Assembly: GCA_902783575.1 (NCBI GenBank)
Contig: CACZRP010000054.1
Location: 1-36,882 of the forward strand
Origin: an uncultured Eubacteriales bacterium
GTDB lineage: Bacteria > Bacillota > Clostridia > Lachnospirales > Bianqueaceae
Direction: 5' to 3'
Length of the DNA: 36,882 nucleotides
Positions 101 through 34,700 of this stretch are shown here, piece after piece (the stretch's first letter is position 1; each line of letters starts with the position of its first letter). Made by a program: the position numbers and the translations under genes. The notes under the pieces were generated by a model. The model did no database searches and was not told where the DNA came from. It saw only the letters and a list, made by a program, of their open reading frames with translations.

Positions 101-128
101 TTGATTTTTCTCTTTTCTATGATAGAAT
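101..128 (+). promoter_or_regulatory. Promoter of the Tet(M)-like/NYN fusion gene
   Basis: The -35 box TTGATT (101-106) and the extended -10 TGA-TAGAAT (hexamer 123-128) are separated by 16 bp. The expected start of transcription is 134-136, which is the A of the ATG at 136, so the mRNA would have essentially no leader. No Shine-Dalgarno sequence precedes that ATG, which agrees with leaderless initiation. Confidence 0.6.
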
Positions 129-135
129 AGTGTTT

Positions 136-2874
136 ATGAAAAATATTAATTTAGGTATTCTTGCACATGTTGACGCCGGAAAGACTACTTTGTCTGAGGC
201 GATGCTTTATATCAGCGGACAGATCAGGCACCTTGGCCGTGTGGACCACAGGGACTCTTTTCTTGATATGGATATTCAGGAGAGGGAAAGAGGCATAACT
301 ATTTTTTCGAAGCAGGCCAGACTTTCTCTTTCGGACAACACATCGGTTACATTGTTGGATACACCTGGGCATGTGGATTTTTCCAGTGAAATGGAACGCA
401 CGCTGCAGGTTCTTGATTATGCAGTTCTTATCATCAGCGGCGCTGATGGGATTCAAAGTCATACTGTCACACTCTGGAAGCTTTTGAAGAGATATCAGAT
501 TCCCACATTTGTGTTTGTCAATAAAATGGATCTGAATTATCATTCTTCTGAGGAAATTATGAGCCAGCTTCAGGCCAGACTGTCTGAAGACTGCATCGAT
601 TATACGGACAGCAGCGCGATGGCAGAGAAAATAGCGACCATCAGTGAAGAAGCGCTGAATGAATATCTGAATACAGGGAATATCAGTCTTGATACGCAGG
701 TTAATCTGATTCGAAAGAGACTGCTGTTTCCCTGCTTTTTTGGCTCCGCACTGAAGCTTGATGGCGTCAGGGAGTTTATGGATCTTCTTGACAGGCTGAT
801 GATCATGCCGGAATATCCTGAGGACTTCGGAGCCAAGGTATATAAGGTTTCCTATGATTCTTCCGGTGAAAGACTCACCTATATGAAGATCACCGGAGGA
901 TCCCTCTCATCCAAGGACAGCATTGTTACCGGTGAAGAAATGGGACAGCCGGTGCGTGAAAAAGTGAATCAGATCCGGCTATATTCGGGGAGCAAGTATG
1001 AGAATACCGGCAATGCGGAAGCAGGCACTATCTGCGCCATTACGGGGCTTTCAGGCACCTTTCCCGGGCAGGGCCTGGGAATCGAGAAGGACAGTGATGC
1101 CCCTGTGCTGGACAGCTTTATCACTTATCAGGTGATTTCTGAGACGGATATTCATACTGTCATGCGGATGCTGCAGAAGCTGGAGCAGGAAGATCCCATG
1201 CTTCATGTGGTCTGGAATGATCAGCTCCAGGAGCTGCATGTCCAGCTGATGGGCCGGGTGCAGCTGGAGGTGGTCCAGCGACTGATGAAAGAGCGCTTTC
1301 ATACGGACATTGAATTCGGTCCCGGCAGCATTGTCTACCGGGAGACCATTGACTCCTCCATGGAGGGTGTGGGGCATTTTGAGCCTTTGAGACACTATGC
1401 CGAGGTACATCTTCTGCTGGAGCCCGGTCCCAGGGGCAGCGGACTGGTGCTGGATTCCAGAGTCAGCGAAGATCTGCTGGACAAGAACTGGCAAAGACTG
1501 ATTCTGACCCATCTTTCAGAACGGGTATTTCCCGGAGTGCTGACCGGATCTCCCATTACTGATATGAAAATCAGTATCGTGGGAGGCAGAGCCCATGTGA
1601 AGCATACCGAGGGCGGCGATTTTCGCCAGGCGACCTATCGGGCGCTGAGACAGGGTCTGATGCAGACTAAAAATGTGCTGCTGGAGCCTTACTACGACTT
1701 TGAGCTGACCATCCCGGACAGTACCATCGGCCGGGCCATGACAGACCTGGAACAACGGTTCTGCCATTTTGATTCTCCTGTCCAGACAGGAAATGCCAGT
1801 GTGATTTCCGGTTATGGACCGGTCAGCACGCTGGCTGATTATCCCCTGACGCTGACAGCCTATACGAAAGGTGAGGGCACTCTTGTGTGTACCCCCAGAG
1901 GCTATGATCTTTGCCATAACAGCGCTGAAGTTATCGAAAACATTGGTTATCACCCGGAGGAAGATACAGCAAATCCGGCAGACAGCGTATTTTGCTCCCA
2001 TGGGGCTGGATTCATTGTTCCCTGGTATGAGGTTCCCAGGCGCATGCATGTTCATACGCCTTTCAGCCGATTATCACCTCTGGCCAGAGAATACAGGGAC
2101 GAGACCGAAGAGGAGGAAGCCAATGCTCCTGTGAAAAGGTCAGCCGCCCCACAGCCTGCTGATTCGCTGGCACTGGATAAAGAGCTTCTGGAGATCTTTG
2201 AAAGGACCTATGGCAAGGTAGGCAAGGACGCTCTGAGGGAAACAAGAAAGCCAATAAAAAAACATCCCGACACAGACGATAAGGTCCATGTCGAGATTAA
2301 GGAACCGGAAACAGAATATCTTCTGATCGATGGTTATAATGTTATTTTTGCCTGGGATTCCCTGAAAGAGCTGGCGGAAACCAGTCTGGAATCGGCAAGA
2401 AATCAGCTGCTGGAGATCGTGCGCGCGTACCAGAGCTTCCGCAAATGCATCAGTATCGTTGTATTCGACGCTTATAATGTGCCCAGACCCCTGGAGGATA
2501 TTTTCAAATACCAGGAGATCTATGTGGTATTTACCAAGCAGGCGGAAACTGCGGATACGTATATAGAACGAACCACCTATGACCTGAGCAAAAAACAACG
2601 CATCCGGGTAGTTACCTCCGATGGGGCGGAGCAGCTGATTGTCCTCGGCCATGGGGCTCTCAGAGAATCAGCCAGGGAGTTTGAGCAGGAGATGAAGGAA
2701 GTCTGGAACGAGATCCGAGACACCGTTCACGAGTTCAACTACGCTGAACAGAAAGAACAGAAGCGCCTAGACGAACAGCGTCTGATCAATCTGCTGGAGC
2801 AGGCAAATCAGCATCGGGAAGACATAGATCATAAAGAACACAAAGAAGAAAACACCAAGGGTAACCACCACTGA
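136..2874 (+). CDS. Tet(M)/EF-G-like translational GTPase fused to a YacP/Rae1-type NYN endoribonuclease domain
   Basis: This encodes 912 residues from the ATG at 136. That start gives the classical family N-terminus with G1 HVDAGKTT at 11-18; an in-frame GTG at 43 would add 31 unlike residues. Other G motifs are RGIT (52-55), DTPGHVD (75-81) and NKMD (129-132). EF-G-like domains II to V follow to about residue 640, the full length of Tet(M). After a charged linker (about 645-725) comes a NYN domain (about 728-865) with IDGYN (731-735), VVFD (775-778), ETAD (804-807) and TSDG (827-830), the acidic pattern of PIN/NYN nucleases and close to Bacillus YacP (Rae1). A charged helical tail ends the protein. 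Rae1 is known to cut mRNA in the ribosomal A site. The Tet(M) drug-displacing tip loop (YSPVS) reads HVKHT here at 487-491, so tetracycline resistance is unlikely. I infer a ribosome rescue or mRNA quality-control role. The 3' end overlaps yfhO by 108 bp. Confidence 0.9.
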   Translation: MKNINLGILAHVDAGKTTLSEAMLYISGQIRHLGRVDHRDSFLDMDIQERERGITIFSKQARLSLSDNTSVTLLDTPGHVDFSSEMERTLQVLDYAVLIISGADGIQSHTVTLWKLLKRYQIPTFVFVNKMDLNYHSSEEIMSQLQARLSEDCIDYTDSSAMAEKIATISEEALNEYLNTGNISLDTQVNLIRKRLLFPCFFGSALKLDGVREFMDLLDRLMIMPEYPEDFGAKVYKVSYDSSGERLTYMKITGGSLSSKDSIVTGEEMGQPVREKVNQIRLYSGSKYENTGNAEAGTICAITGLSGTFPGQGLGIEKDSDAPVLDSFITYQVISETDIHTVMRMLQKLEQEDPMLHVVWNDQLQELHVQLMGRVQLEVVQRLMKERFHTDIEFGPGSIVYRETIDSSMEGVGHFEPLRHYAEVHLLLEPGPRGSGLVLDSRVSEDLLDKNWQRLILTHLSERVFPGVLTGSPITDMKISIVGGRAHVKHTEGGDFRQATYRALRQGLMQTKNVLLEPYYDFELTIPDSTIGRAMTDLEQRFCHFDSPVQTGNASVISGYGPVSTLADYPLTLTAYTKGEGTLVCTPRGYDLCHNSAEVIENIGYHPEEDTANPADSVFCSHGAGFIVPWYEVPRRMHVHTPFSRLSPLAREYRDETEEEEANAPVKRSAAPQPADSLALDKELLEIFERTYGKVGKDALRETRKPIKKHPDTDDKVHVEIKEPETEYLLIDGYNVIFAWDSLKELAETSLESARNQLLEIVRAYQSFRKCISIVVFDAYNVPRPLEDIFKYQEIYVVFTKQAETADTYIERTTYDLSKKQRIRVVTSDGAEQLIVLGHGALRESAREFEQEMKEVWNEIRDTVHEFNYAEQKEQKRLDEQRLINLLEQANQHREDIDHKEHKEENTKGNHH

Positions 2875-5496
2875 GATGGAATCCAGAGTGGGATTCTCCG
2901 TGATTCTTTCGTAGATCCGATGCATGGCCGGGATCAGCAGACTGCAAAGTAATAAGACCAAAGCGGCCAGGCTGACAATCAGTCCCGGGATCAGTCCGAC
3001 GGGCATAAAGGAAATACTGATCTCATGATTTCCGGCAGGAAGCCGGAAGGAAACAAAACCATCAAAGCTCTCTGTCAGGGGAGCTTTTTTGTTGTCGATT
3101 TTCAGGGTAAGACCCTCATCATAGGGAAGAGACATAAAGATGGTTTTATCCTCCTCAAAAGAGGAGACCGCGGATAAAGACCGGTTGGAAGTCTTTTTAA
3201 AGCCCAGAGCCTCGCATTCCTTTGCCGCCTGCTGCAGCTGATTCATCTGCAGGCTGAACAGACCGAAGGAACGGCAGTTCACGGGCTTCAGAAGCTCAAT
3301 ATCCACCTCAACCATTTCGTTGGAGAACAGTCCCAATTCCACGAGGCCGTTGTTAATGGATGTGGGGTAGGAAGAGTAGACGATCTTGTTGTCGACGGTA
3401 ATTCTGAAGGCGTTATAGATGGGCTCGGACAGATGATTGGTCAGCTCATCAAAACAGTCGAAGTAAAGGTAGGCCGGCTCATCGAACCGAATCTGGTAGA
3501 TGAGATGACCGTGGGTATCGGTCAGATTCTGCCGGAGCTGATACTCGCCGCCGGCGTGGGCGATGTTGATATCCCTTTCTACAGAAGGCGAATAGGATTT
3601 AAGGGCAGGCTCTGCATGGGGGAACAGTTTATGCCAGAGCAGTTCCTGAACTTCAAAGCGGCTCAGCCTCTCCAGATGATTGGTGTCGGATGAAGATTCT
3701 TCCGAAGCGATGCCCATGGGCAGGACCACAGGCTTTCTGACAACTTTATAGGTATTGTTGGCGTATTCGCTCTTCATGCCATCCGCCCATTCCACCTGAT
3801 AAGCCACAGACATATAGGCATCGGTCAGAACAGTGCCGCCATAGCCGCCAACTTCCATCCAGTAGGAGGAATAGCCCAGATTCTTCATGGCGAACATATA
3901 GGACTGGCTGGTGAGAGAAGTATAGTGGCCCAGGGTATTGAAGCCCAGGGCTGCCAGAGAGTTGGCGTGATAGTATTTCTGCCTCATTTTCACGCGGTAG
4001 AAATCCGGCGAAGCCCCCTCAGCGATTTTCTCTTCATCCGGGCGGAAATTCTCCAGATCCGTGAACTGCTGGTATTGATAGACATGCTCGTCGGTATCGG
4101 CGGAGATCATATAGATCTGGATATTGTTCCAGAAACTGTGAACCAGGAGAACCAGACACAGAATTACAAAATAGAGAGGCCGGATGGTATTCCGGTTCAG
4201 GCAGCGGATCAGCAGCAGAAACACCGGGAATTCGAGCAGGGCCAGAAGCGAAAGAAGCTGCAGAGAATTGCTGTTTCCCCAGAGGTGATGGGTATAGCTG
4301 GAAAGGACAGTAATCTGCGCGTTTACCACCAGATGGGAGAGCAGACAGGATGTGACAGACAGCAGCAGGAGAGCGGCGAAAATGACTGTTTCTTGCACCT
4401 GGTCCTTAGGTTTTTCGGCGGGAACAGCCTTTTCAAGATAATAAGCTCCCAGAATGATCATCAGAAAGAGGGGAATAAAGCCATATCTGACGGGAAAGCT
4501 CATGTAGTTGCCGGTATGCCACATGGTATTGACAGGCTCAATAAAGACCGGTATCAGCATCAGGAACAGTAGGAACAGATAGTTTTTAATCAGGCCTTTT
4601 TTCAGAGGGGTATGAACGATACCATAGCAGATGGCAGCCAGAGCCATCATGGAAGGAAACAGGATGGGCAGTGTGGTCTGAATGTGAGTAAACAGAGTCT
4701 TATCTGCCAGCGTGCTGAGAATGGAGGTGCCTCGGCCGGAGGAGAGGAACTGGAGTATGCTGGGAAGCCAGACAACGCAGGTCAGGCAGGCCGCAGCCAG
4801 AGAGCCGGCAAGAAAGCGGCTGAGTACGGTTTTCCGGTTTTCCGGGTTCAGCGTTAAGGCAAGAACGCCAAAATACAGCAGAGTGAAAACCACTACCATA
4901 TACTCGATATAGTAGCAGAGCACCATCATGGCGCTCATACAGAAAATATAATATCTGACCTGATGCCGGGCCGCCAGATGCTCAAAGGATAGCATCAGCA
5001 GAGGAAACAGGGCGGCCATATCCAGCCAGATGGTATTCTGATAGAAAAACAGGCTGTATCCGGAGAAGGCGTACAGGAGAGCAAACAGAAAGCAGTACAT
5101 GGGACGGTGCTGGTGCCTGATCAGATAGATGCAGGCAGTCAAGCCGCATAAAGCCATCTTGAGAATGGTCAGAACATTCATAAACTCCAGCATCCTGGCA
5201 TCGGGAACCAGCAGCAGAATCAGATGGACGGGGCTGGAAATGAAGAAGAAAAACACGCCCCAGAAATTCATGCCTCCCGCCGCGTGAAAGCTGTAGAGCA
5301 TGCTCTCGGAGCCGGTGATGATGCGTTTAAAGCTGAGGAGCAGCGGAATGACCTGCTGGTCCATATCGCACCAGGAGATGGAGCCGTTCCCGAAGGGATA
5401 AAAGCCTTCAATCAGAAAGACCATCAGTAAGATAAAAGAAACCGCCACAGGTGTACCTATTAATACGAATCTGTAAGCGGTATTTTGATTTTTCAT
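2767..5496 (-). CDS. yfhO: YfhO family membrane protein (putative envelope glycosyl-transfer protein)
   Basis: The 909-residue protein has an N-terminal membrane helix, the acidic CDMDQQ motif in the first outer loop, many hydrophobic helices over roughly the first half, a long soluble extracellular part and two C-terminal helices. This is the YfhO architecture. Bacillus YfhO is linked to glycosylation of lipoteichoic acid, probably as the membrane enzyme using an undecaprenyl-linked sugar; the exact substrate here is unknown. The gene starts 9 bp after the typA stop, and its AAGGA ribosome binding site abuts the typA TAA, so the two are very probably cotranscribed and perhaps translationally coupled. 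The last 35 codons, which contain the whole final membrane helix, lie antisense to the tail of the Tet(M)-like/NYN gene. No terminator is visible at the overlap. Confidence 0.88.
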   Translation of the reverse strand: MKNQNTAYRFVLIGTPVAVSFILLMVFLIEGFYPFGNGSISWCDMDQQVIPLLLSFKRIITGSESMLYSFHAAGGMNFWGVFFFFISSPVHLILLLVPDARMLEFMNVLTILKMALCGLTACIYLIRHQHRPMYCFLFALLYAFSGYSLFFYQNTIWLDMAALFPLLMLSFEHLAARHQVRYYIFCMSAMMVLCYYIEYMVVVFTLLYFGVLALTLNPENRKTVLSRFLAGSLAAACLTCVVWLPSILQFLSSGRGTSILSTLADKTLFTHIQTTLPILFPSMMALAAICYGIVHTPLKKGLIKNYLFLLFLMLIPVFIEPVNTMWHTGNYMSFPVRYGFIPLFLMIILGAYYLEKAVPAEKPKDQVQETVIFAALLLLSVTSCLLSHLVVNAQITVLSSYTHHLWGNSNSLQLLSLLALLEFPVFLLLIRCLNRNTIRPLYFVILCLVLLVHSFWNNIQIYMISADTDEHVYQYQQFTDLENFRPDEEKIAEGASPDFYRVKMRQKYYHANSLAALGFNTLGHYTSLTSQSYMFAMKNLGYSSYWMEVGGYGGTVLTDAYMSVAYQVEWADGMKSEYANNTYKVVRKPVVLPMGIASEESSSDTNHLERLSRFEVQELLWHKLFPHAEPALKSYSPSVERDINIAHAGGEYQLRQNLTDTHGHLIYQIRFDEPAYLYFDCFDELTNHLSEPIYNAFRITVDNKIVYSSYPTSINNGLVELGLFSNEMVEVDIELLKPVNCRSFGLFSLQMNQLQQAAKECEALGFKKTSNRSLSAVSSFEEDKTIFMSLPYDEGLTLKIDNKKAPLTESFDGFVSFRLPAGNHEISISFMPVGLIPGLIVSLAALVLLLCSLLIPAMHRIYERITENPTLDSISVVVTLGVFFFVFFMIYVFPMLICLLQQIDQTLFV

Positions 5497-5505
5497 GGTT
5501 TATCC

Positions 5506-7341
5506 TTAGTTTTTGGCAGACTGGGAAGCACGGAAGATCGCTTTGGCTCTCAGACCGGCATCCAGAATTTCCTTACGCATACGGATGCTCTTCGGCGTGA
5601 TCTCCACAAGCTCGTCATCTGCGATAAATTCAAGACATTCTTCCAGAGACATTTCCTTGGGCGGCGTCAGGCGCAGCGCTTCGTCGGCAGCAGAGGAGCG
5701 CATGTTGGTGGCATGCTTCTTTTTGCAGACATTGACGACAATGTCCTCGCCTCGGGAGCTCTCACCCACAATCATGCCTTCGTAGACATCGGTGCCCGGT
5801 CCGATGAACAGGTTGCCGCGCTCCTGAGCGTTGAAAAGTCCGTAAGTAACGGCTTCTCCCGTCTCGTGAGCAATCAGTGAACCATGGGTTCTGGGAGCGA
5901 TTTCACCCCGGAAGGGCTTGTAGCTGTGGAATACATGGTTAATGATGGCAGTTCCGTGGGTTTCGGTCATCAGCTGGGAGCGGTATCCGATGAGACCTCT
6001 GGCGGGAATCAGAAACTCAACGCGGGTGTAGCCGCCCTGGGTGGGAGTCATGTTCACCAGTTCTGCTTTTCTCGCAGCGGAGCCTTCCATCAGCACACCT
6101 GTGTATTCGTCGGGCAGATCCACCACCAGCTCTTCAAAGGGTTCCCAGACCTGACCGCCCACCATTTTGGTAATAACCTGAGGTTTGGTGACGGCAAATT
6201 CGTAGCCCTGGCGTCTCATCTCTTCGATGAGGACGGAAAGATGCAGCTCGCCGCGGCCAGATACGATCATGGATTCGGGAGAATCGGTATCCTCGACTCT
6301 TAAGGAAATGTTGGATTCCAGCTCACGGTAGAGACGGTCTCTCAGATGGCGGGAGGTAACATATTCACCCTCCTTGCCGGCGAAGGGACTCTTATTGACG
6401 GTAAAGGTCATGGAAAGGACGGGCTCATCAATGGAAACAAAGGGCAGAGGCTCCACATTGGTGGGACAGCAGATGGTTTCTCCGATGTTGATATCCTTCA
6501 GACCAGAAACAGCGACAATCTCGCCGGCGGCTGCGTCCTCAGCCGGAACCCGGCGCATGTCATCATAGACATAAAGATTCGTGATCTTTACATTGGAGGA
6601 GGTGCCGTCCTTCCGGCAGATAACCACCTGATCGCCTACCTTGACAGAGCCGCGGTCAATACGGCCCACCGCGATACGGCCGGTATAGGTGTCGTAGTCA
6701 ATGTTGGAAACCAGCAGCTGCAGGTCACCATTTACATCTCCCTTGGGAGCGGGAATGGTGTCAATGATGGTCTGGAACAGAGGCTGCATATCCTGTCCCA
6801 CCACGGAGTAATCCGTGGAAGCCCAGCCGTCCCTGGCGGAGGCGTAGATCACAGGAGAATCCAGCTGTTCGTCGCTGGCGCCAAGGTCCAGAAGAAGCTC
6901 GAGAACCTCATCCACCACAGCGTCGGGACGGGCGTTGGGACGGTCGACCTTATTGATGACGATGATGGGCGTCAGATTCAGATCCAGGGCTTTTTTAAGA
7001 ACAAAACGGGTCTGGGGCATGCAGCCTTCATAGGCATCCACCAGCAGCAGCACGCCGTTGGCCATTTCCAGGGCACGTTCCACCTCGCCGCCGAAATCGG
7101 CGTGGCCGGGGGTGTCGATAATATTGATTTTATATCCGTTATAATGCAGAGAAGTATTTTTCGCCAAGATGGTAATACCGCGTTCTCTTTCCAGATCGCC
7201 GGAATCCATGATTCTCTCGGCTACCTCCTGGTTTTCACGGAAAATACCGCTCTGATGAAGCAGCGCATCCACCAGGGTAGTCTTGCCATGGTCAACATGG
7301 GCAATGATGGCGATATTACGGATCATATTCTGTTCAATCAT
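5506..7341 (-). CDS. typA: Ribosome-associated translational GTPase TypA/BipA
   Basis: The 611 residues match the usual family length. G1 is AHVDHGKTT, G2 RGITI, G3 DTPGHADFGGE and G4 NKVDRPNARP, the last typical of TypA. The C-terminal half carries the TypA segments around GRGELHLS and IPARGLIGYRSQ. TypA binds the 70S ribosome at the elongation-factor site and is implicated in ribosome assembly and stress or low-temperature growth. The start ATG at 7341 has AGAGG 6 nt upstream; the second Met (MIRNI) has none. A strong promoter lies just upstream. yfhO follows at 9 bp. Confidence 0.97.
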   Translation of the reverse strand: MIEQNMIRNIAIIAHVDHGKTTLVDALLHQSGIFRENQEVAERIMDSGDLERERGITILAKNTSLHYNGYKINIIDTPGHADFGGEVERALEMANGVLLLVDAYEGCMPQTRFVLKKALDLNLTPIIVINKVDRPNARPDAVVDEVLELLLDLGASDEQLDSPVIYASARDGWASTDYSVVGQDMQPLFQTIIDTIPAPKGDVNGDLQLLVSNIDYDTYTGRIAVGRIDRGSVKVGDQVVICRKDGTSSNVKITNLYVYDDMRRVPAEDAAAGEIVAVSGLKDINIGETICCPTNVEPLPFVSIDEPVLSMTFTVNKSPFAGKEGEYVTSRHLRDRLYRELESNISLRVEDTDSPESMIVSGRGELHLSVLIEEMRRQGYEFAVTKPQVITKMVGGQVWEPFEELVVDLPDEYTGVLMEGSAARKAELVNMTPTQGGYTRVEFLIPARGLIGYRSQLMTETHGTAIINHVFHSYKPFRGEIAPRTHGSLIAHETGEAVTYGLFNAQERGNLFIGPGTDVYEGMIVGESSRGEDIVVNVCKKKHATNMRSSAADEALRLTPPKEMSLEECLEFIADDELVEITPKSIRMRKEILDAGLRAKAIFRASQSAKN

Positions 7342-15029: not shown

Positions 15030-15067
15030 CTTAAACAATGATCCCTATTTTTCGGAAAGGAGGGTCT

Positions 15068-16882
15068 ATGTCAGATCCCAGGAAAATCAGGAATTTCTGT
15101 ATAATTGCCCATATTGATCACGGCAAATCCACTCTGGCCGACAGAATTATCCAGAAAACCGGTCTCCTCACAGAACGTGAGATGCAGGATCAGGTACTGG
15201 ACAACATGGATCTGGAGCGGGAGAGAGGCATTACCATCAAGGCTCAGGCTGTCCGACTGGTTTATCACGCCTCCGATGGTGAAGAATATATTTTCAACCT
15301 GATTGATACTCCCGGTCACGTGGATTTCAATTATGAGGTTTCCCGTTCTCTGGCCGCCTGTGAGGGCGCTGTGCTGGTGGTGGATGCTTCCCAGGGAGTG
15401 GAGGCCCAGACGCTGGCCAATGTTTATCTGGCGCTGGAGCATGATCTGGAGATTCTTCCTGTGATCAATAAGATAGATCTTCCTGCCGCCGAGCCTGAGC
15501 GTGTGAGAACGGAGATAGAAGATATTATCGGTCTGGACGCCTCCGACGCCCCTCTGATCTCTGCCAAAACCGGCATCAATATCGAAGAGGTTCTGGAACA
15601 GATTGTTCAGAAGATCCCGGCTCCGGAAGGTGATCCCGCCGCGCCCCTGAAGGCGCTGATTTTCGACTCTCTCTACGATTCCTACCGTGGCGTCATCGTA
15701 TTCTGCCGCGTGATGGATGGTGAAATGCGCCGCGGCGTCCGGGTACGCATGATGGCGGCCGGTGCGGAATACGATGTGGTGGAAGTGGGCTACATGGGTG
15801 CAGGCACCCTGATTCCCTCCGAGACCCTCGGTGTGGGAGAGGTGGGCTATTTTACTGCCAGCATCAAGGATGTCAGCAATACCCGGGTAGGTGATACGGT
15901 AACGGAAGCCGCCAGACCCGCGAGTGAGGCTCTGCCGGGCTATAAAAAAGTGCTTCCCATGGTGTACTGCGGCATGTATCCTGCGGACGGCGCCAAATAT
16001 CCGGATCTGAGGGATGCCCTGGAAAAACTGAAGCTCAATGATGCTTCCCTGTTCTATGAGCCGGAGACCTCCGCTGCCCTGGGATTCGGTTTCCGCTGCG
16101 GCTTTCTTGGTCTGCTGCATATGGAAATCATTGAAGAAAGACTGGAGAGAGAATTCAATCTGGATCTGGTCACCACAGCGCCGGGCGTTATCTATAAGGT
16201 CCACAAGACCAACGGCGATCTGATTATGCTTTCCAATCCTTCCAACCTGCCGGATGCCGCTGAAATTGACTATATGGAGGAGCCCATTGTCAATGCCGAG
16301 ATCATGATCCCCACCGAGTATATCGGAGCGATTATGGATCTCTGCCAGGACCGCCGCGGCGTTTATCAGAGCATTCAGTATATCGAAGATACCAGAGCGA
16401 TGCTGAATTATCATCTGCCTCTGAATGAGATCATCTACGACTTCTTTGATGCCCTGAAAAGCCGCAGCCGGGGCTATGCCTCCTTCGACTATGAGCTTCT
16501 CGGCTATGAACGTTCCGATCTTGTGCGGCTGGATATGCTGATCAACAAGGAAATGGTGGATGCTCTTTCCTTTATTGTTCACACCTCAAAGGCCTATGAG
16601 CAGGGCCGCCGGATGGCGGAGAAGCTGAAGGATGAAATTCCGAGACATCTGTTTGAAATTCCCATCCAGGCTGCCATCGGCGGAAAGGTCATCGCCAGGG
16701 AGACGGTGAAAGCCATGCGCAAGGATGTGCTTGCCAAATGCTATGGCGGTGATATTACCCGTAAGAAAAAGCTGCTGGAGAAGCAGAAAGAGGGTAAGAA
16801 GCGGATGCGCCAGGTGGGTAATGTGGAAATTCCCCAGAGCGCCTTTATGGCTGTGCTTAAGTATGATGATGAAAAAGGTTAA
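15068..16882 (+). CDS. lepA: Elongation factor 4 (LepA), ribosomal GTPase
   Basis: The 604 residues match the family length. G motifs are [28 protein letters not shown] and NKIDLP. The LepA-specific C-terminal domain is present, with [22 protein letters not shown] and [12 protein letters not shown]4 acts on the ribosome, reported to back-translocate stalled complexes or to help initiation and 30S biogenesis. The start at 15068 is taken because AAAGGAGG lies directly before it and the protein then begins at the usual place; an in-frame ATG at 15038 adds ten unlike residues. A bidirectional terminator follows. The usual neighbour hemW is absent. Confidence 0.97.
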
Positions 16883-22642: not shown

Positions 22643-24259
22643 TTGAGTAATGAAAATATCCGGGATGAGATCGCGAGGAGAAGAACCTTCGCCATCATAT
22701 CTCATCCGGACGCCGGTAAAACCACCCTCACGGAAAAGCTGCTGCTTTACGGAGGCGCCATAGTTGAAGCCGGTATGGTTAAAGGCAAAAAGAATATGCG
22801 TCACGCGGTTTCCGACTGGATGGAAATCGAAAAGCAGAGAGGTATTTCCGTTACCTCTTCCGTGATGCAGTTCAACTACGAAGGATACTGCATCAATATC
22901 CTGGATACCCCGGGCCATCAGGATTTCTCTGAGGATACCTACCGCACCCTGATGGCGGCGGACTCCGCCGTCATGGTGATTGACGGTTCCAAGGGTGTGG
23001 AGGCCCAGACCCGAAAGCTGTTTAAGGTCTGCCGCATGAGAGGAATCCCGATCTTCACCTTCATCAACAAGATGGACCGGGAAGCCAAGGACAGCTTTGA
23101 TCTGATGAGCGACATTGAAGGGGAGCTGGGAATTGAAACCTGTCCCATCAACTGGCCCATCGGATCCGGCAAGCGTTTCCAGGGTGTTTATGACAGGCTT
23201 CACAAAAAACTGATCAAGTTTGAGTTTGAAGGGGACACCATCGCGGGAAAACATGAGGTTTCCTCTGTATCTATGGAGCTGACGGATCCCCGGCTCGGCG
23301 AAATGATCGGAGAAGAGGCCCTGGAGCAGCTGCTGGAGGAGACCGAGCTGCTGGACGGTGCCGGCCATCCCCTGGACATGGAGATGGTGAGCCATGGAGA
23401 GCTTTCACCGGTATTTTTCGGCTCCGCGCTGACGAATTTCGGTGTGGAACCTTTCCTGGAGGAGTTTCTTCATATGACCACCTCCCCGCTGCCCAGAGAA
23501 GCTAAAGAGGGGATTGTGGACCCGCTGACGGATCCTTTCTCCGGCTTTATCTTCAAGATCCAGGCCAATATGAACAAGGCCCATCGGGACAGAGTTGCGT
23601 TTTTGAGAATCTGCTCCGGCAAATTTGAGAAGGGAATGGAGGTTTACCATTCCAAGGAAGGAAAGAAGATCCGTATCTCCCAGCCCACCCAGCTGATGGC
23701 CCAGGACAGGTCCATCGTGGATGAAGCCTATGCGGGAGATATCATCAGTATCTTTGATCCAGGAATCTTCTCCATCGGTGATACCATCTGCGATACAAAG
23801 CATATTGTTCACTATCAGGGCATTCCCACCTTCGCCCCCGAGCATTTCTGCCGGCTGCGGCAGGTGGATACCCTGAAGAGAAAGCAGTTCATTAAAGGAA
23901 CCACCGAGATCGCAGAGGAGGGTGCCATTCAGATCTTCCAGGAGCCGGGAAAAAGCATGGAGGAGGTCATTGTAGGCGTTGTCGGTACCCTGCAGTTCGA
24001 TGTGCTGATCTACCGTCTGAAGGCGGAATACGGCATTGAAGTCCGTATGGAAAATCTTCCCTATGAGCACATCCGCTGGATCCGGGCTCTGCCTGAAAAC
24101 ATGACCGCGCCCACGGATCTGACGCTGACATCGGATACCAAGATTGTTCAGGATATCAAAGGCAATCTTCTTCTCCTTTTCAGCAGCGAATGGAACATCG
24201 ACTGGGCTCTTTCCCATAACAAGGGACTGACCCTGGCTGAATTCAGTGACAATGAATAA
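22643..24259 (+). CDS. prfC: Peptide chain release factor 3
   Basis: The 538-residue GTPase has G1 SHPDAGKTT, G2 RGISV, G3 DTPGHQDFSED and G4 NKMDRE, and the RF3-type C-terminal region with VVGTLQFDVLIYRLKAEYG. RF3 removes RF1 and RF2 from the ribosome after peptide release; RF1 is encoded later in this window. The start is TTG, with AAGGAAGGA ending 7 nt upstream; the alternative GTG at 22639 is out of frame. glnS follows after 23 bp and is probably cotranscribed. Confidence 0.96.
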   Translation: MSNENIRDEIARRRTFAIISHPDAGKTTLTEKLLLYGGAIVEAGMVKGKKNMRHAVSDWMEIEKQRGISVTSSVMQFNYEGYCINILDTPGHQDFSEDTYRTLMAADSAVMVIDGSKGVEAQTRKLFKVCRMRGIPIFTFINKMDREAKDSFDLMSDIEGELGIETCPINWPIGSGKRFQGVYDRLHKKLIKFEFEGDTIAGKHEVSSVSMELTDPRLGEMIGEEALEQLLEETELLDGAGHPLDMEMVSHGELSPVFFGSALTNFGVEPFLEEFLHMTTSPLPREAKEGIVDPLTDPFSGFIFKIQANMNKAHRDRVAFLRICSGKFEKGMEVYHSKEGKKIRISQPTQLMAQDRSIVDEAYAGDIISIFDPGIFSIGDTICDTKHIVHYQGIPTFAPEHFCRLRQVDTLKRKQFIKGTTEIAEEGAIQIFQEPGKSMEEVIVGVVGTLQFDVLIYRLKAEYGIEVRMENLPYEHIRWIRALPENMTAPTDLTLTSDTKIVQDIKGNLLLLFSSEWNIDWALSHNKGLTLAEFSDNE

Positions 24260-32551: not shown

Positions 32552-32615
32552 TTTTTATTTGCGGCCATGCAACTCACATCCTGCATGGACATCTGCAGCA
32601 AGGAGGATTGGAACT

Positions 32616-34700
32616 ATGGATGTATATTCTGCGGAAAATATCCGTAACGTCGTATTATTAGGCCACGGCGGCGTAGGAAAGACAACGATCGCTGAACAGA
32701 TGGCTTTTATAACCAAGGCATCCACGCGCCTTGGAAAGGTCACAGATAAGAATACCATTTCTGACTTTGACCAGGAAGAGATGAAGAGAGGATTCTCCAT
32801 TAACACTTCCCTGATTCCCATCGAATGGAGTTCCAGTTTTATCAAACATAAAATTAATATCTTAGATACTCCCGGTTACTTTGACTTCGCCGGTGAAGTT
32901 GAAGAGGCCATGAGAGTGGCCGGCGGCGCCATCATCGTTGTTGATGCCAAAGCCGGTGTCCAGGTCGGTACCGAGCTGGCCTGGGAGAAGACCGAAAAGA
33001 AGCATATGCCCCGCATGATCTTTGTCAACGGCATGGACGATCCCGAAGCCAATCTGGAAAAGGTTCTGGAACAGCTGAAGGAGAAATTCGGCAACGCCAT
33101 TGCTCCTTTCCAGGTTCCCTTCAAAGAGAACGGCAAATTCGTCGGCTTTGTCAATGTGCCTAAGATGGAAGGCCGCCGTTACTCCGGAAACCGCGTTGAA
33201 GATTGCCCCATTCCCGATGGCATGGAGGATGAAATCGAGCCCGTTCGCCAGATGATTCTGGAAGCTGTCGCCTCCACCGATGAAGAGCTGATGGAAAAAT
33301 TCTTCATGGAAGAAGAATTCACTCCGGAAGAGATTAATCATGCCCTCAGAAGCGGTATCATCAGCGGTGACATCGTTCCTGTTCTTTGCGGCGCTGCCAT
33401 CAACGGTACCGGTATCGGTGTTCTGATGAGCTCCATCTGCAGCTATCTTCCCAATCCCGCAGTTGCCTATCCCAAAGCTCCCGCCAAGGATCTTGAAGGC
33501 AATGACATCGAAGTCGAGTGCAAGGCCGATGGTCCTTTCTCCGGTCTTGTGTTTAAGACCAGTGTGGACCCGTTCCTCGGAAAAATCAGCTACTTCAAAG
33601 TGCTTTCCGGTACCATCAGACCCAACGATACCATCGTTAACGTCAAGAAGGAAGCCGAAGCCCGCGTCAGCCGTGTTTATACCATGCGCGGCAAAGAGCA
33701 GATCGAGGTTCCTGAGCTGCAGGCCGGTGATATCGGTATTCTGACCAAGCTGACGGTTACCCAGACCGGAGATACACTGGCCGCTAAGGATTTCAACGTT
33801 GTATATCCCGGCGTTGATTTTGCTCCTTCTCTGATGTCCATGGCCATCAAACCCAAGAACAAGGGTGATGAAGATAAGATGACCACTTCTCTGGCCAAGA
33901 TTATTGAAGAGGATCCGACCCTGCGTACCGAAGTTGACGGTGAACTGAAGCAGCAGCTGATCTATGGTGCCGGTGACCAGCACCTGGATGTTGCCATTAA
34001 CAAACTGAAGAACAAGTTCAAGGTTGAAGTTGAGCTGTCCAAACCGAAGGTGTCCTATCGCGAGACCATTCTTGGCCGCGCGGAAGTCCGCGGCAAGTAC
34101 AAGAAGCAGTCCGGAGGTCATGGCCAGTACGGTGATGTTCAGATTATCTTCGAGCCCAGCGGCGATATGGAGAAACCTTACGTCTTCGAAGAGCAGATCT
34201 TCGGCGGTTCCGTACCGAAGAACTACTTCCCCGCTGTTGAGAAGGGTATTCAGGAAAGCGTTAAGGAAGGTCTGCTGGCCGGCTATCCTATGGTTGGCGT
34301 TAAGGCTACCCTGACCGATGGTTCCTACCATCCCGTTGACTCTTCTGAAATGGCATTCAAGACCGCTACCTCCATGGCCTTCAAGGAGGGTATTCCGAAG
34401 GCTAAACCCGTGATCCTTGAGCCTATCGCTTCTGTGAACGTTCTTGTCAACGAGGAATACATGGGCGATATCATGGGCGATCTTAACAAGAGACGCGGCC
34501 GTGTCATGGGTATGGAGCATATGGGTAAGAAACAGCTGATTTCCGCTGAGGTTCCCATGTCTGAGATGAGCTCCTATGCCACGGATCTTCGTTCCATGAC
34601 TCAGGGACGTGGTTCCTATACCATGGAGTTTGCCCGTTACGAGCAGACCACTCCTGATGTTCAGGCAAAGATTATTGCCGAGAACAAAAAGCCCGAATAA
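32616..34700 (+). CDS. Elongation factor G-like GTPase with altered G motifs
   Basis: The 694-residue protein has the five-domain layout of EF-G, including domain IV (KKQSGGHGQYGDV, GSVPKNYFPAVEKG) and domain V (LNKRRGRVMGME). Its G motifs depart from canonical EF-G: G1 is GHGGVGKTT (16-24) not AHIDAGKTT, G3 is DTPGYFDF (84-91) with Tyr88 where translational GTPases have the catalytic His, and G4 is NGMD (138-141), not NKxD. This matches EF-G paralogues rather than the housekeeping fusA, which normally lies with rpsL and rpsG. Nucleotide hydrolysis may be weak. AAGGAGG precedes the ATG at 32616. Codon use is highly biased, suggesting strong expression. A good terminator follows. Confidence 0.9.
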   Translation: MDVYSAENIRNVVLLGHGGVGKTTIAEQMAFITKASTRLGKVTDKNTISDFDQEEMKRGFSINTSLIPIEWSSSFIKHKINILDTPGYFDFAGEVEEAMRVAGGAIIVVDAKAGVQVGTELAWEKTEKKHMPRMIFVNGMDDPEANLEKVLEQLKEKFGNAIAPFQVPFKENGKFVGFVNVPKMEGRRYSGNRVEDCPIPDGMEDEIEPVRQMILEAVASTDEELMEKFFMEEEFTPEEINHALRSGIISGDIVPVLCGAAINGTGIGVLMSSICSYLPNPAVAYPKAPAKDLEGNDIEVECKADGPFSGLVFKTSVDPFLGKISYFKVLSGTIRPNDTIVNVKKEAEARVSRVYTMRGKEQIEVPELQAGDIGILTKLTVTQTGDTLAAKDFNVVYPGVDFAPSLMSMAIKPKNKGDEDKMTTSLAKIIEEDPTLRTEVDGELKQQLIYGAGDQHLDVAINKLKNKFKVEVELSKPKVSYRETILGRAEVRGKYKKQSGGHGQYGDVQIIFEPSGDMEKPYVFEEQIFGGSVPKNYFPAVEKGIQESVKEGLLAGYPMVGVKATLTDGSYHPVDSSEMAFKTATSMAFKEGIPKAKPVILEPIASVNVLVNEEYMGDIMGDLNKRRGRVMGMEHMGKKQLISAEVPMSEMSSYATDLRSMTQGRGSYTMEFARYEQTTPDVQAKIIAENKKPE

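Follow-up and report, generated by a model that had tools for sequence, protein, structure and literature searches.

A Rae1-type nuclease domain fused to an EF-G/Tet-like GTPase is a near-exclusive alternative to standalone Rae1 in Clostridia

Rae1 (YacP) of Bacillus subtilis attacks mRNA in the ribosomal A site in a translation-dependent manner (PMC12320835, PMC6613710, PMC10100781). Tet-type factors have a ribosomal binding site that overlaps that of EF-G in the A site, and Pro509 of Tet(M), on the tip of domain IV, sits in the tetracycline site (PMC8161019). The two kinds of protein meet in clostridial "Tet" proteins that also contain a YacP NYN domain; Atkinson 2015 (PMC4342817) described ten of these, from ten species, and read them as possible antibiotic resistance proteins. 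Here we analyse a further member with the same architecture and from the same bacterial group, encoded on a 36,882-nucleotide contig of an uncultured Eubacteriales bacterium (the whole of which we call the window). The fusion was therefore already published in 2015, and other earlier mentions are possible. Our account differs from that of Atkinson 2015 in placing the GTPase, by sequence comparison, outside the Tet(M/O/S/W) group, in finding the fusion in 128 of 393 Clostridia genomes and in its replacement of standalone Rae1.

The fusion gene is an uninterrupted open reading frame at window positions 136–2874 (+ strand), which translates to 912 amino acids. From N to C terminus, the protein consists of a five-domain EF-G/Tet-like GTPase, a conserved C-terminal extension, a linker of about 87 residues and a Rae1/YacP NYN nuclease domain. 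The G domain, of the EF-G family of translational GTPases (residues 1–221; 136..798, +), matches Pfam GTP_EFTU over residues 2–221 (3.9e-49) and contains the motifs AHVDAGKTT (the P-loop, 10–18), DTPGH (75–79), NKMD (129–132) and GSAL (203–206). Domains II, III, IV and V (222–596; 799..1923, +) correspond to Pfam EF-G_D2 (232–309), EFG_III (335–395), EFG_IV (398–511) and EFG_C (514–596) and are modelled confidently by AlphaFold2. The P-loop, DTPGH, NKxD and domains II–V of the EF-G superfamily of translational GTPases are thus all present by Pfam, motifs and model. Alignments delimit the C-terminal extension of the GTPase (597–640; 1924..2055, +), which reads SVFCSHGAG...PW....MH and in which C620, H622 and G623 are invariant among 80 fused proteins. 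The initial annotation had described a complete Tet(M)/EF-G-like GTPase over residues 1–640; its extent is best put at residue 1 to about 640, with this extension counted in.

The variable linker (641–726; 2056..2313, +) is predicted by AlphaFold2 to be largely disordered and differs between homologues in both length and sequence. It leads into the NYN_YacP/Rae1-type nuclease domain (727–886; 2314..2793, +), which is assigned from Pfam, PDB sequence matches and conservation; the Pfam NYN_YacP match covers 729–886 with 159.5 bits against a curated cut-off of 24.6 (9.5e-47). The remaining C-terminal tail (2794..2871, +), of differing length among homologues, lies within a long helix (846–908) in the AlphaFold2 model. 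In PDB sequence searches the closest solved structures to the front half (1–592) were Tet(O) (9.8e-69) and Tet(M), and the back half (728–889) matched B. subtilis YacP/Rae1 (5mq8 and 5mq9, about 1e-24), with the NYN domain aligned over nearly its full length. A structure search with the whole model returned only EF-G-type chains among the top 50, as would be expected with the GTPase as the larger module. Rae1 of B. subtilis is a standalone protein of about 170 residues, whereas the domain here forms the tail of a 912-residue GTPase.

We assessed conservation by scanning genome contigs, which yielded 313 relatives, and aligning the best 80 of these, the window protein included. In these 80 fused proteins the GTPase residues D13, K16, T17, T18, T55 and D75 are invariant; H79 is present in 79 of 80, K130 and D132 likewise in 79 of 80 (one gap), and N129 in 73 of 80, with T in 5. 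The nuclease residues D732, N735, D778, D807, S828 and D829 are invariant in all 80, and we rejected a degenerate nuclease on this ground; loss of the acidic residues across homologues, which the initial annotation had named as a refutation, was not seen. The initial annotation had correctly named D732, D807 and D829 among the acidic residues of the NYN fold; the second acid is D778, residue 777 being F. Comparison with 26 standalone proteins showed that D732, N735, D778, T805, D807, S828 and D829 are common to fused and standalone members, and that 25 of the 26 positions conserved to at least 90% in both sets have the same residue. The assignment as a Rae1-type nuclease is therefore borne out by Pfam, the PDB matches and the retention of the family-invariant residues. 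The fused clade also has markers of its own beside the catalytic motifs, within DGYNVIFAWD and FDAY (residues 738–741 and 780; window 2347–2358 and 2473–2475): F738 occupies a position that is mostly N in standalone Rae1, in which D741 and Y780 are rare.

The GTPase module was characterized further against named families. The best-scoring of these was tet_protect (1.7e-117), at 393 bits where the curated cut-off is 775, and the EF-G model gave 272 bits against a cut-off of 659. The module has the five-domain order of Tet(M) and Tet(O), with about 30% identity over residues 1–590, but it falls below the tet_protect cut-off and differs from them in its domain IV tip, C-terminal extension and clade. 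At the tip (residues 484–498, GRAHVKHTEGGDFRQ; 1585–1629, +), an alignment places YYSPVST of Tet(M/O/S/W) against GRAHVKHTEGGD here, with the general form GRAHxKHTEGGD, and His487 aligns with the histidine that is conserved at the domain IV tip in EF-G (GSYHDVDS). With EF-G the fusion shares domain order, G motifs and this histidine; the EF-G loop SGGRGQYGH is absent, and GHFEPLRHYAEV is found instead. The C-terminal extension has the form common to unfused members of the group, SVFCxHGAG...W....MH, unlike the Tet C-terminal segment. A GTPase tree, built by a quick method and with long branches flagged, groups the fused proteins with unfused relatives of 651–657 residues, apart from Tet(M), Tet(O), Tet(S) and Tet(W), the separate clades each having SH-aLRT 100. 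By sequence, then, the GTPase is not a Tet(M) protein and appears to form a subfamily of its own. The initial annotation was right that the GTPase is complete with its G motifs, but the Tet(M) label does not survive the curated score, tip loop, C-terminal segment and tree, and the same four lines reject a tetracycline resistance protein.

Two further GTPases were seen in the course of this comparison. An unfused relative in Limosilactobacillus fermentum CP033372 (L137:5001-6897; about 45% identity over 13–639) is split by a frameshift in the record and unannotated, and its partial sequence was placed among the fused rows of the tree. A 659-residue Tet-like GTPase with the tip GNHHVWHTHPLD (L177; G607:C8:24652-26532) grouped weakly with Tet(M/O/S/W) (SH-aLRT 91), and its genome also carries an unfused GTPase.

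We then considered how the two modules are joined. The AlphaFold2 model, made with 63 aligned sequences, contains two confident modules and has a pTM of 0.65, so that their relative placement is not fixed; pLDDT is below 50 at 663–675, 691–693 and 696–724. Much of 663–724 is thus predicted to be disordered, and the reach of the NYN domain is unlikely to be limited by the linker, a partial answer to the earlier question of whether the linker lets this domain approach the A-site codon. Within the linker, a motif scan and alignment identified a putative helix with the motif DKELLEIFERTYG (681–693; 2176..2214, +), of general form ELxxIFxRTYG. The strict form [KR]ELxx[IV]FxxT[YFH]G occurs in 55 of the 80 fused proteins, and most of the other proteins have a looser version; E683, I687 and T691 reach 90% conservation or more in an alignment of 63 rows. 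The unfused GTPases examined terminate before this motif. The ELxxIFxRTYG helix therefore appears, from these alignments, to be the sole conserved element specific to the fusion as such.

To place the fusion in a wider setting, we surveyed 393 Clostridia genomes (a sample of at least 90% completeness, with the window's own genome added), calling fused and standalone proteins from the length of the open frame. An NYN_YacP domain is present in 250 of the 393 and the fusion in 128, about a third of the sampled species. By this call the NYN_YacP genomes comprise 128 with the fused form, 112 with the standalone form and 9 that are unclear, mostly owing to short or cut frames. A single genome (G302) has an intact standalone gene in addition to the fusion, and in another (G388) the fusion is accompanied by a broken remnant. 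In the window's genome, which is 86% complete, a search for standalone yacP/rae1, proposed as a check in the initial annotation, returned the fusion as the sole NYN_YacP match; with the continuous reading frame, this upholds the claim that both modules reside on one polypeptide. Fused and standalone Rae1 are thus almost mutually exclusive alternatives, which suggests that the fusion is the cell's Rae1. In G302, the neighbourhood of the standalone copy, which we read by eye as mrnC-rlmB-yacP-sigH, is presumably in the canonical order. This gene order is consistent with the fusion having arisen first and the old copy having been lost later.

The fusion relatives belong to the class Clostridia, with one copy of the fusion or GTPase per genome across many families. 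Its recurrence in 128 sampled genomes rules out a chimeric assembly. A mobile or phage gene as its main home was also rejected: only 2 of 1381 matching plasmid records and 2 of 110 matching phage records reach a query coverage of 80% or more, and the plasmid matches lay on replicons of 518 and 760 kb or had lower coverage. Two unannotated faecal 'Bacteriophage sp.' records (MT835563 and MT835514) contain the fusion over 93–94% of the query, and may include host DNA. A search with PADLOC models for anti-phage defence gave no match, and we rejected a defence system on this basis.

To examine the origin of the fusion we built a tree of NYN domains. In it, 28 fused rows and one standalone row (from genome G227) form a clade with support of 100/100, and the fused rows alone form one side of a branch supported at 80/63, which favours a single origin of the fused NYN domains but does not prove it. 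G227 encodes an unfused GTPase elsewhere in its genome, so that its pair may be either a split fusion or an unfused relative. The GTPase subfamily as a whole is present in 163 of the 393 genomes: all 128 with the fusion, 6 of those called unclear, 22 in which Rae1 is a separate gene, 6 without NYN_YacP, and the window's own (fused). Among non-fused genomes, 22 have the GTPase and a separate Rae1, 6 the GTPase only, 90 Rae1 only and 139 neither, a co-occurrence above chance by Fisher's test (9e-5, not corrected for phylogeny); many of the 22 come from one family, f38. The two parts are linked, yet each is able to occur alone: Rae1 functions in Bacillus without such a GTPase and lacks it in 90 of the sampled Clostridia, and the GTPase is present without Rae1 in 6, so neither needs the other.

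The surroundings of the gene in the window were also inspected. A candidate promoter, TTGATT-16-TAGAAT (101..128, +), ends 7 nt before the ATG; it is a pattern match, with 1 found against 0.6 expected by chance. We saw no clear Shine-Dalgarno sequence upstream of the ATG, and the proximity of the promoter-like element to the start together with this lack suggests that the mRNA may be leaderless. Leaderlessness as a conserved feature was rejected, since the promoter arrangement is not conserved in homologues. Downstream, a convergent open reading frame for a membrane-protein-like product of 909 residues (2767-5496, −) overlaps the fusion gene tail to tail by 108 bp (2767-2874). The 37-kb contig carries five translational GTPases between positions 136 and 34700, the fusion included. 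We take three of them, from their translations, to be TypA/BipA-like (5506-7341, −), LepA-like (15038-16882, +) and RF3-like (22643-24259, +), and two other frames presumably encode release-factor-1-like (31393) and GlnRS-like (24283) proteins. A second EF-G-like frame (32559-34700, +) scores 687.6 bits against the EF-G model, and the genome thus encodes an EF-G of its own besides the fusion. A genome of the same genus (G013) and one of another genus of the same family (G001) also have matching GTPase frames together on a single contig, but G041 does not.

RelE toxins form a family without a GTPase and are a different kind of nuclease. They offer a comparison only in how they work, by attacking mRNA in the A site (PMC12320835). 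We propose that the fusion is the cell's Rae1, delivered to stalled ribosomes by its GTPase, with the task of finding ribosomes taken over by the attached non-Tet(M) module, a proposal that we regard as evenly poised. The analysis shows the architecture with its conserved motifs, the fusion standing in for separate Rae1, a favoured single origin and a flexible tether, and every step of the action on the ribosome is inferred. The GTP-bound GTPase module would dock at the factor site of a ribosome whose stalling has left the A site empty, and domain IV, which carries a tip histidine like that of EF-G, would enter the decoding site. GTP hydrolysis would free domain IV while the linker held the NYN domain nearby; the tethered NYN domain could then move into the vacated A site and cut the A-site codon as free Bacillus Rae1 does, and the truncated complex would be cleared by tmRNA or another rescue route. 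Since a domain IV of EF-G type would occupy the A site in which Rae1 would also have to work, the modules would have to act sequentially, with a hand-over between them. Counting for this proposal are the invariant nuclease residues, the alternation of fused and standalone forms, the NYN clade, the GTPase match in all 128 fused genomes, the co-occurrence of the separate genes, the joining of two modules by a low-confidence linker and the literature on Rae1 in the A site. Counting against it are the occurrence of each module alone, the competition for the A site and the fact that a good share of the co-occurrence derives from f38. A stronger form, in which one protein detects the stall and cuts the mRNA in place of free Rae1, timed by GTP and with the linker helix as a switch, is tentative and somewhat more doubtful than not.

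In the main rival account, the GTPase could provide ribosome affinity only, or have a separate job, with the NYN domain cutting like free Rae1 and uncoupled from GTP hydrolysis. The existence of each module alone in other species, the mostly disordered linker of variable length and the uncertain relative placement (pTM 0.65) would all fit such an anchor, but the near-single origin, the long retention over many families and the conserved linker helix suggest more than a loose tether, and we consider it unlikely, if a serious contender. A checkpoint in rRNA or tRNA processing or ribosome assembly, in which the GTPase would check newly made ribosomes and the NYN domain would trim rRNA, is improbable. 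The standalone Rae1 of G302 adjoins an RNA-methyltransferase-like gene, and maturation of rRNA and tRNA was the role originally proposed for the NYN domain, as cited by Atkinson 2015 (PMC4342817); B. subtilis Rae1, however, acts on mRNA in a translation-dependent manner, and the residues shared with it are kept. Finally, the proposal in Atkinson 2015 (PMC4342817) of antibiotic resistance by a Tet-type ribosomal protection protein with an acquired RNase domain agrees with tet_protect as the best named family and with Tet(O) and Tet(M) as top PDB matches, but is very improbable given the score of 393 bits against 775, the replacement of the YYSPVST loop and its proline by GRAHxKHTEGGD, the lack of the Tet C-terminal segment, the separate clade, the single copy per genome in many families and the near-absence from plasmids.

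In summary, the new elements of our account are a GTPase that we place outside Tet, the replacement of Rae1 by a sole fused copy, the near-single NYN clade, the co-occurrence of the separate parts and the linker motif. The annotation of these proteins is corrected accordingly: their best named-family score is to tetracycline resistance, yet the defining Tet features are absent. Rae1 and a ribosome-type GTPase were joined, probably in a single event, and the pair has been retained across many families of Clostridia, common gut bacteria included. If cleavage requires GTP hydrolysis, the fusion would offer a handle on stall recognition and on the timing of mRNA quality control. If the stronger form of our proposal is true, a large share of Clostridia would use a stall detector and mRNA cutter of this kind.
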